Shown: positions 34,311-40,179 of the stretch, in pieces | How positions within the stretch are numbered: position 1 is the first letter of the stretch | Layout: each line of letters begins with the position of its first letter | Origin: Methanospirillum hungatei | GTDB lineage: Archaea; Halobacteriota; Methanomicrobia; Methanomicrobiales; Methanospirillaceae | Length of the DNA stretch: 64,000 nt | Direction: 5' to 3' | Assembly: GCF_019263745.1 (NCBI RefSeq) | Contig: NZ_CP077107.1 | Location: 2,914,001 to 2,978,000, forward strand | Position numbers and translations under genes: made by a program | The notes under the pieces: generated by a model | What the model saw: the letters and a program-made list of their open reading frames with translations, nothing else | Told to the model about the DNA's origin: nothing | Database searches by the model: none

Positions 34311-34646
34311 TTAGTATCTTCTGCGGTTACCGCCAAAGCCACCGCTTCCGCTACCGCCGCCATAGCCACGGTTTCCACCAAAGGAACTATTGCCACCGAA
34401 TTCACGGCGTGGCTGCATGGGACGGGCTTCGTCAATCCGCAGGGTTCTTCCACCAAATTCGGTCTGGTTTAGGGAATCCATTGCGTTTTGTGCCTCTTCG
34501 GAGGTGCTCATTTCTACAAATCCAAATCCTTTCTGCTCAATAAGCTTGACATTGTCAACTGTCCCAAAAGGAGCAAAAAGTTCTCTGATCTGGGTCTCAT
34601 TTGTAGAGTAGGGGAGGTTCCCAACGTATAATCTCTTTCCTTCCAT
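34311..34646 (-). CDS. RRM RNA-binding protein with Gly-rich tail (second copy)
   Basis: A 111-residue protein: one RRM (about 3-75) with RNP2 LYVGNL and RNP1 KGFGFVEM, then a Gly/Asn/Arg-rich tail (FGGN and GYGG repeats). The build is that of cyanobacterial and plant cold-inducible glycine-rich proteins and suggests acquisition from bacteria. The ATG at 34646 follows GTGAT by six bases; a TTG at 34652 is less likely. Its leader (34653-34800) can form two exclusive hairpins, which suggests RNA-level control. Confidence 0.9.
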   Translation of the reverse strand: MEGKRLYVGNLPYSTNETQIRELFAPFGTVDNVKLIEQKGFGFVEMSTSEEAQNAMDSLNQTEFGGRTLRIDEARPMQPRREFGGNSSFGGNRGYGGGSGSGGFGGNRRRY

Positions 34647-34667
34647 TATCAATCACTTATCTTTTGC

Positions 34668-37820: not shown

Positions 37821-38462
37821 TTACAGGAGTTTTGGATGTTCATTGAGGAAGACCCGGATTTTCTTGTCCGAGATATCTGCCCTGTCCCCCGCCATAATTC
37901 CTGCAGAAACATAGGAATTAGATGAACCGCTCTCTCCCTTATTCCGTAATATGGCTGCCTGATCAAAATTGTCAGTAAACTGAATCATCCGATCAATAAA
38001 ATCATAATATTGTAACCGCACATAATCCATTTTCTTTGGAAATGTACTGGCATCATTATTGTTTCTGATTCTTTGACGAAGTTCATTAATATGTGTTTGA
38101 GCTGCTAAAGCATCTCCGGCATTCCAGGTATCAAGAACTGCTTTCTTTCCTTCCTGAATGAGATCAAGCTTTGTTATAACAAGTTCCTGAAAAGCCAAGT
38201 TTGGATCTGGTGTCGGTACCTGAACTGGAGTTGTGGGCTCTGGTGTGATTATTGGTGATGTTGTCGGTAATGGTGTATGACTTATTGTCTCATTTTTAGA
38301 CTCGTTCACAAGCTCTTCAGGGGAGATCTCTGACTCTTGAACTGGTTTGCTTGTTTCCTCCGGAGATACTACTGGATAAGACTGAATTTGCTCCTGTTGA
38401 ACACATCCTGCGAGTAGGATTGTAGCGAGGAGGATACAACCCACAATGAAATATTTAACCAT
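37821..38462 (-). CDS. Lipoprotein of unknown function
   Basis: A 213-residue lipoprotein: hydrophobic segment 5-17 and lipobox LAGC with Cys at 20. Residues 25-95 form a Pro/Thr/Ser/Glu-rich linker, and residues about 98-213 form a helical domain without recognised motif. This build (lipid anchor, flexible linker, small domain) is common in Methanomicrobiales. Upstream, ATCTCATATA occurs twice exactly 20 bp apart (38475 and 38495), probably in the promoter. Confidence 0.6.
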   Translation of the reverse strand: MVKYFIVGCILLATILLAGCVQQEQIQSYPVVSPEETSKPVQESEISPEELVNESKNETISHTPLPTTSPIITPEPTTPVQVPTPDPNLAFQELVITKLDLIQEGKKAVLDTWNAGDALAAQTHINELRQRIRNNNDASTFPKKMDYVRLQYYDFIDRMIQFTDNFDQAAILRNKGESGSSNSYVSAGIMAGDRADISDKKIRVFLNEHPKLL

Positions 38463-39000
38463 ACACTGTTGTTGATCTCATATACAAATATGCTATCTCA
38501 TATATCTCCTTTTAAAAAAACAGTCGGGTATTATTATAGTAAAAGATTGATAATCTGAATATTTCATATTGTCTGAATTATTCCGATAAAAATTCAGGAA
38601 AACTCTTTGAAATGATTATTCTTTTAAATATTATATCATAATGATTATAAATTGAATTATATGCTCACATAAAAATATTTTAAATCATAAAGTCAAGCAC
38701 GCACTCTGAATATTTGAACAAATTATTAATATTTACACGTTTCAATCGATATTTTTGAAAATCGTGATTATGAGAACTAAATTCCCGATTTTCAGTCATA
38801 TTTTTAAAAACCAATAGTTTCCGGATGTTCAATGTTCTTCTCCGGATTGTATTGTATGATTTCAGGATGCGGGGAATTCATGATAATCAGGCATTCTTTC
38901 GGGGTCAGAACGTAGATCACTATCTCTATGAAATTTATCGTATGATTTTTATTTCACGATTACAAGAAGTAACATTTAACTCTCCACCCGATGACCCATT
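38463..39000. other. AT-rich gene-free stretch
   Basis: About 540 bp with very low GC; by my count one 60-base line around 38600 has only about 20 per cent GC. It holds the promoter side of the lipoprotein gene. A 64-codon plus-strand frame at 38825-39019 has no ribosome site or motif and ends in the GC-rich island. I see no gene I would support here. Confidence 0.5.
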
Positions 39001-39360
39001 GGATCAGAGGTACTCGTGACGGATCCCCCGGAGCGGTGCCTCGCGGGACAGGGGCTGGTAACATCCGCTATAGCCCCCTATCATAATGGTATTCAGAGTT
39101 GGAATTCGGGTAATTTGATCCCTGCCGGCATATTGCCGGTGTGCCATTACAACTGTTGCAATGGAGTGGTACAATAGTGCCATCCGTCTGCACACATGGA
39201 TCACCTACCAGACACATCAACCCCACCAGACAGCACTAGGTAGACCCGGATAAACCCCCCAACAATGATGCCATTTCATCGGGCATAATCATCATTCACA
39301 TCCCCCCTGACAGCATCCCATCAGGGCACCCGCCAGCCTCTCCCGTTTTCATGGGAGATC
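39001..39360. ncRNA. GC-rich, hairpin-dense island; candidate structured RNA
   Basis: By my count this 360-bp segment has about 54 per cent GC against 20-30 per cent just before it. Perfect stems include GGGGCT/AGCCCC (39051-39077), CCGGCA/TGCCGG with a 3-base loop (39125-39139), CCATT/AATGG with inner CAA/TTG (39144-39164), CCCTGA/TCAGGG (39305-39326) and TCTCCC/GGGAGA (39339-39358). AGCGG (39032) can pair with CCGCT (39065), crossing the first stem as a pseudoknot. I recognise no known RNA class in either orientation; it could instead be remains of a mobile element. Strand undecided. Confidence 0.4.
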
Positions 39361-39477
39361 TGTTCATACGTTTTATCATTTTCTTCACCTCATTCAAGAG
39401 ACAATTCTGAATAATTGGGATATTATTTAATAATCTTATGCTTATACCAACTGTATGTGTCTTGAATGGGGAGAATC

Positions 39478-40179
39478 ATGGGATTTTGGAGTAGAAGAAA
39501 AGGAGTGACTGATGATATTAAAGAAACCCCGGACAATTGTTTAAATAAATATGAGGAGGGAAAACCTGTTTTACCTGTCGAAGAACCGGAAAAATCCACA
39601 AAGAAACTAAAAATACCTTTAAACAAAACTACATCTGATGTAAAATATATCCTTAAAACAATTTTCTTTCCCTGTCCTATTTGTAGTGAAATAAATACTG
39701 TTGATCTCTCCGAACTAGATCCCATAATGGGCGGTGAAACCATGTGTGTTCACTGTCAGGTGGTTCTGCATATTCCCGGAGGCTATCTGACTCACTCTGA
39801 AGTTCCGAAATTAAAGGTATATGCCGGCCTTCCTGTTGCAGTACGAAAATTCCCGTTATTTTATTGGAACCATCCGGTAATAAACGACCTGGAACAACAG
39901 GGTATCACCCGCATTATCATTCAATATGGATTATGGGGATTTTGTCAGCGATGTCATCACCAGTTCAGCCCTGCTGTTCTCATAAACCTCCCTCATACAT
40001 CAGGAGAGATTGTTGATTACCGTTCTTTATCATCCGAAGAGATGAATGAGATGAAATCACTCAGGGCTGGTTGTTGTCCATATTGCTCCCACCGAATTCT
40101 TCTGGTAATTATATCTGATGTTCCCCACTATGTCATATCAGCAAGCGAAAACCTGGCACATCGATGGGAGGAGGATTAA
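39478..40179 (+). CDS. Zinc-ribbon protein of unknown function
   Basis: A 233-residue soluble protein with four Cys pairs: CPIC and CVHC (about residues 66 and 90), then CQRC and CPYC (about 158 and 202). They suggest two zinc ribbons split over the chain. The N-terminus is basic and polar. No catalytic motif is recognised. I chose the ATG after GGGGAG; an ATG at 39466 would add four residues. The end overlaps that of the convergent nudC by four bases. Confidence 0.6.
   Translation: MGFWSRRKGVTDDIKETPDNCLNKYEEGKPVLPVEEPEKSTKKLKIPLNKTTSDVKYILKTIFFPCPICSEINTVDLSELDPIMGGETMCVHCQVVLHIPGGYLTHSEVPKLKVYAGLPVAVRKFPLFYWNHPVINDLEQQGITRIIIQYGLWGFCQRCHHQFSPAVLINLPHTSGEIVDYRSLSSEEMNEMKSLRAGCCPYCSHRILLVIISDVPHYVISASENLAHRWEED

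Follow-up and report, generated by a model that had tools for sequence, protein, structure and literature searches.

A GC-rich island in a gene-free gap of the M. hungatei GP1 genome

The genome of Methanospirillum hungatei GP1 is a single contig of 3,393,136 bases, of which we analyzed a stretch of 64,000 nucleotides, positions 2914001-2978000, hereafter called the window. The open reading frames 37821-38462 (-) and 39466-40179 (+) bound a gap (38462-39466) in which the window's ORF list holds small ORFs alone, all of them spurious. Inside this gap lies an island with a GC content of 0.54 at 39000-39199 versus 0.205-0.225 at 38500-38799, and an initial description from sequence alone, that of a GC-rich island in a gene-free, AT-rich gap, was thus borne out. 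The segment 38500-38799, between a lipoprotein-like gene and the island, is itself strikingly AT-rich (GC of about 0.21). On the other side, 39466-40179 (+) encodes a protein of 237 amino acids with CxxC pairs like those of zinc ribbons and no Pfam match. It is conserved in the M. hungatei clade (eight species, clade A) and absent at the same place in the other clade (three species, clade B).

No part of the window reached the gathering score of an Rfam 15 family, and at permissive thresholds the matches were at chance level alone (best E value of 0.86 at the locus). The archaeal RNase P RNA (RF00373) and the archaeal SRP RNA (RF01857) have no match at the locus; each has its own full-length gene elsewhere on the contig (140338-140636 and 2299921-2300233, respectively), in agreement with the earlier remark that the island bears no marks of either. 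The GP1 genome paper counts 70 RNA genes, two of which are ncRNAs (PMC8359780). Those two are presumably the RNase P and SRP RNAs, so that the locus at 39000-39345 would be unannotated. In one of the rRNA operons of this genome, two 5S rRNA genes lie in tandem (L066, 4981-5299), consistent with the five 5S genes for four operons reported for GP1 (PMC8359780).

Extent and putative promoter of the predicted RNA gene

Position-by-position comparison of the two clades delimited a conservation island at 38960-39330 with a sharp 3' edge. Between-clade conservation sets in at a TATA-like box around 38970 and drops at 39327, directly after a terminal hairpin. From this island, the homologues, the stability of the fold and the covariation described below, we predict an ncRNA gene at 39000-39345 on the plus strand. 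Its 5' end, at about 39000, was placed from the promoter-like box, and its 3' end just beyond the terminal hairpin, in a pyrimidine-rich tract.

The putative promoter box (38966-38979, plus strand) reads GAAGTAACATTTAA, or GAAGTAAACTTTAA in most relatives, and resembles the archaeal BRE/TATA consensus in the alignment. It stands about 25 bases 5' of the conserved RNA start, and an AT-rich box precedes the RNase P gene of the same genome by a similar distance. With an archaeal promoter box around 38970, the 5' end would be expected near 39000. Upstream of the promoter, TGAAAT...ATTTCA half-sites at 38929-38956 (plus strand) form a possible operator. They are kept in clade A only, and in two of its eight species they make up a perfect CTGAAATTTATTTCAG; their pattern occurs nowhere else in the window, where 0.07 occurrences would be expected. 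These elements suggest that the RNA is transcribed from its own promoter and that, in the M. hungatei clade, it may be regulated. The pyrimidine-rich stretch 3' of the terminal hairpin contains T-runs and would resemble archaeal terminators.

Conservation of the RNA fold

For 38990-39370, the folding energy of the plus strand is -134.8 kcal/mol versus -113.5 (SD, 5.0) for dinucleotide shuffles, a z score of -4.28 with none of 100 shuffles as low, whereas the minus strand gives a z score of -1.04 against such shuffles. Over the 11 homologues, cut to 330 nucleotides, the mean z scores are -2.04 (plus) and -0.71 (minus). We predict with high confidence that the RNA is encoded on the plus strand. 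Four G-runs had been pointed out on the minus strand; they are present, but none of the homologues shows a quadruplex pattern, even when loops as long as 12 nucleotides are allowed.

The proposed consensus structure comprises 49 pairs on the alignment of the 11 sequences. Standard pairs fill 96.6% of its cells versus 33 to 44% in controls in which one side was slid. Changes on both sides of a pair affect 11 pairs versus 4.4 (SD, 1.4) in shuffles and 22 cells versus 6.4 (SD, 2.3), counts that are uncorrected for relatedness among species falling into two main clades. Base changes in the homologues thus preserve pairing beyond chance, as expected of a structured ncRNA, and several of the stem-loops seen at first in one sequence are real and conserved among homologues.

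The predicted fold shown by the alignment has one hairpin on its 5' side and another, the terminal hairpin, on its 3' side; between them, the long-range helix P3 closes a domain that contains variable hairpins and a 39-nucleotide invariant block. Hairpin P1 (GAGGUAC.UCG.../...GCGGUGCCUC; 39007-39042, plus strand, as are all elements below) has two pairs changed on both sides and 97.7% of its cells paired, and 7 of 20,000 permutations of its arms among species did as well. Long-range helix P3 would join 39088-39109 to 39246-39272. Its mean duplex energy is -27.6 kcal/mol with native arms versus -21.4 kcal/mol when the 3' arms are swapped among species; none of 20,000 permutations equaled the native arrangement. 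Eight pairs of helices 3 to 5 are changed on both sides, and the predicted P3 is supported by such compensatory changes. Hairpin P4 (39125-39139) varies in sequence among species while its folding is constant, none of 20,000 arm permutations equaling the native one. Hairpin P5 (UGUUGCA.../...UGCACACA; 39154-39196) has 97 to 100% of its cells paired across the alignment, one pair exchanging GC, AU and UA.

Next to P5 lies the invariant block, CATGGATCACCTACCAGACACATCAACCCCACCAGACAG (39195-39233), identical in all 11 species, while many stretches of the RNA around it show differences of 20 to 60%. Helix P6 (CUACC/GGUAG, 39205-39243) would close a loop with the second half of this block; as read from the alignment, clade B replaces this clade A helix with a register-shifted GACAC/GUGUC. 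Further 3', the segment UCAUCAUUCACAUCCC (39289-39304) is near invariant and predicted to be unpaired. The terminal hairpin (CCCUGA/UCAGGG, 39305-39326) has a stem invariant in the 11 species, and conservation ends there.

An H-type pseudoknot (AGCGG/CCGCT crossing GGGGCT/AGCCCC) had also been proposed, and the alignment does not establish it. It is 80% paired across species versus 97% for the main structure, and its stem GGGGCT/AGCCCC is paired in 72% of cells. Its columns overlap those of the better-supported P1, its pairing breaks in clade B, and for the region of its second stem 1,236 of 20,000 permutations were as good. A pseudoknot in clade A is possible, if weakly supported.

Distribution in Methanospirillum and synteny

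Of 12 species genomes of Methanospirillum, 11 gave one match each in DNA searches, among them all seven that are near complete; another 29 genomes from the family and order gave none. An exact 35-nucleotide part of the core occurs on seven contigs among 84,980 species genomes, all of them of the Methanospirillum lineage. Covariance searching, which had been proposed together with a search for copies within the genome, found no convincing match outside the genus, none being better than an E value of 0.01 among the 199 genomes searched in the order and the 232 in the class; the model spans the 110-nucleotide core only, so that a divergent relative could escape it, and filters were stricter in searches of more than 40 genomes. 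Within the GP1 genome, the copy search showed the island to be single copy.

The neighborhood is conserved as well, with Dph6-like, glutamine amidotransferase and TraB-like genes following on the opposite strand. Scanning the place that flanks the Dph6 and amidotransferase genes in other genera revealed no core motifs. On present evidence, the RNA is confined to Methanospirillum, where each genome that has it carries a single copy at a conserved position. The frame 34311-34652 (-), some 4 kb upstream of the predicted gene, encodes a short, glycine-rich RRM-like protein. Several relatives have kept this protein, which from its sequence is a candidate for binding the RNA.

The sequence-only reading had suggested an undescribed ncRNA. 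This suggestion draws support from conservation across the genus, from compensatory base changes, from the correctly placed promoter-like box, from the sharp boundary at the 3' hairpin and from the lack of an Rfam match. We conclude that a previously undescribed, structured RNA gene restricted to Methanospirillum is very likely real.

Possible functions

The RNA might regulate mRNAs in trans by antisense pairing. It would display its invariant, C-rich unpaired segments at 39195-39233 and 39289-39304, which would pair with the G-rich ribosome-binding and start-codon regions of mRNAs; this pairing would block or alter their translation. P1, P3 and the 3' hairpin would serve as scaffold and protection. 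We hold this function tentatively, well aware that it is uncertain, and favor it over a structural or catalytic role because the unpaired invariant segments are C-rich, like antisense of translation start sites.

Taking the reverse complement of the 3' segment, written as UCAUCAUUCACAUCCC(CCC), gives a Shine-Dalgarno-like G-run followed by a spacer and AUG-AUG. Among the 64 crudely called genes of the window, to which this test was confined, the core prefers upstream regions over coding interiors by -0.59 kcal/mol versus +0.71 (SD, 0.48) for shuffled cores, 1 of 100 of which was as low. The strongest preference for start regions came from 20-mers at 39283-39307, overlapping UCAUCAUUCACAUCCC, in a scan over the whole RNA that was uncorrected for the number of windows. 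Searching for complements of 39289-39305 with up to two mismatches gave no exact target except the RNA itself. Complement matches of the 3' C-rich segment outnumbered those of a reversed-pattern control; of the 20 that we inspected, most fall within coding frames, and a clear position at a start codon was seen for none, so that we read the excess as codon usage. Moreover, the unchanged 39-nucleotide block is longer than usual regulatory seeds, and a core that binds protein or is catalytic would be compatible with such a block too.

That last feature leads to an alternative that we regard as quite possible, if rather doubtful, namely, that the P3-closed domain and the 39-nucleotide block form the binding or active core of a ribonucleoprotein, with no antisense pairing. 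A long invariant block in a helix-closed domain amid variable hairpins has the look of large functional RNAs. The 24-nucleotide center of the block matches the gene itself alone, with no second or antisense copy in the genus when up to three mismatches and, in part, wobble pairs were allowed, and the rRNA genes contain no complementarity to the RNA of 10 nucleotides or more. Against this alternative stand the unusual C-richness of the unpaired segments and their start-site-like character; there is no known protein partner or reaction, and no homologue beyond the genus is available for comparison.

It is improbable, in our view, that the RNA acts on the translation machinery, its block mimicking the 16S rRNA tail or serving as a decoy for the factors or mRNAs that read it. 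This idea comes from the presence in the core of UGGAUCACCU, a 10-base string that also occurs close to the 3' end of the M. hungatei 16S rRNA; the match may be due to chance and is weak evidence. If the idea were true, Methanospirillum would have a genus-specific, ribosome-directed RNA.

We think it very unlikely that the RNA is a cis-acting leader or riboswitch of the zinc-ribbon-like gene at 39466-40179. This gene lies on the same strand, 120 bases downstream of the RNA, and is kept there throughout the eight-species clade, but the three clade B genomes keep the RNA without it. In one of them, the next plausible gene is the glutamine amidotransferase gene on the opposite strand, which ends about 235 bases beyond the start of the core. 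Conservation also stops at the terminal hairpin, well short of the start codon. The constant 5' UTR position before homologous genes that marks riboswitches and leaders is not seen, the downstream gene being absent in clade B.

A short protein is likewise hardly to be expected. An ATG in the block opens a frame of 14 to 15 codons in the eight-species clade (MDHLPDTSTPPDSTR in five of the eight), with start and stop kept across that clade in the alignment. However, the block does not vary even at its synonymous positions, clade B has not kept the stop, and the ATG is not preceded by a Shine-Dalgarno-like string. Between species, the longest stop-free frame varies in phase and length, and the 11-species alignment holds no reading frame common to all. 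Since synonymous positions are fixed, the frame is unclosed in clade B and none is common to all species, selection appears to act on the RNA (or the DNA) and not on a peptide alone.

Finally, the earlier suggestion of mobile-element remains, which has the GC contrast with the surroundings alone in its favor, is for practical purposes refuted by the single syntenic copy under strong selection in each genome, by the lack of a homologue in phages and plasmids, and by the lack of an exact core in viral contigs.

A trans-acting regulator is our tentative choice. Whichever function applies, the RNA is present in every near-complete genome of a model genus of syntrophic methanogens with 39 unvarying bases, and it probably has an important role. 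Its clear covariance model makes it testable, and the invariance of its core and its retention across the genus make it worth an experiment.

Comparison with known RNAs

To our knowledge, few structured noncoding RNAs are known from the Methanomicrobiales. The archaeal RNase P RNA (RF00373) and SRP RNA (RF01857) are, like the RNA described here, single-copy structured archaeal RNAs of similar length. Another parallel is sRNA162 of Methanosarcina mazei, which, with similar small RNAs of methanoarchaea, is likewise a methanogen ncRNA and is proposed to base pair with mRNAs in its published description (PMC3510493). Set against that description, on which alone the comparison draws, the Methanospirillum RNA differs in being about 340 nucleotides long and highly structured, with a 39-nucleotide invariant block and no known target. 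A third parallel is with orphan structured RNAs from comparative genomics, for instance the 104 motifs of one survey (PMC2864571), which similarly combine conserved structure with compensatory changes, restriction to a lineage, unknown function and probable action in trans. The main text of that survey names no Methanospirillum, and the RNA is not among the Rfam families. As a kind, it belongs with the other orphan structured RNAs.
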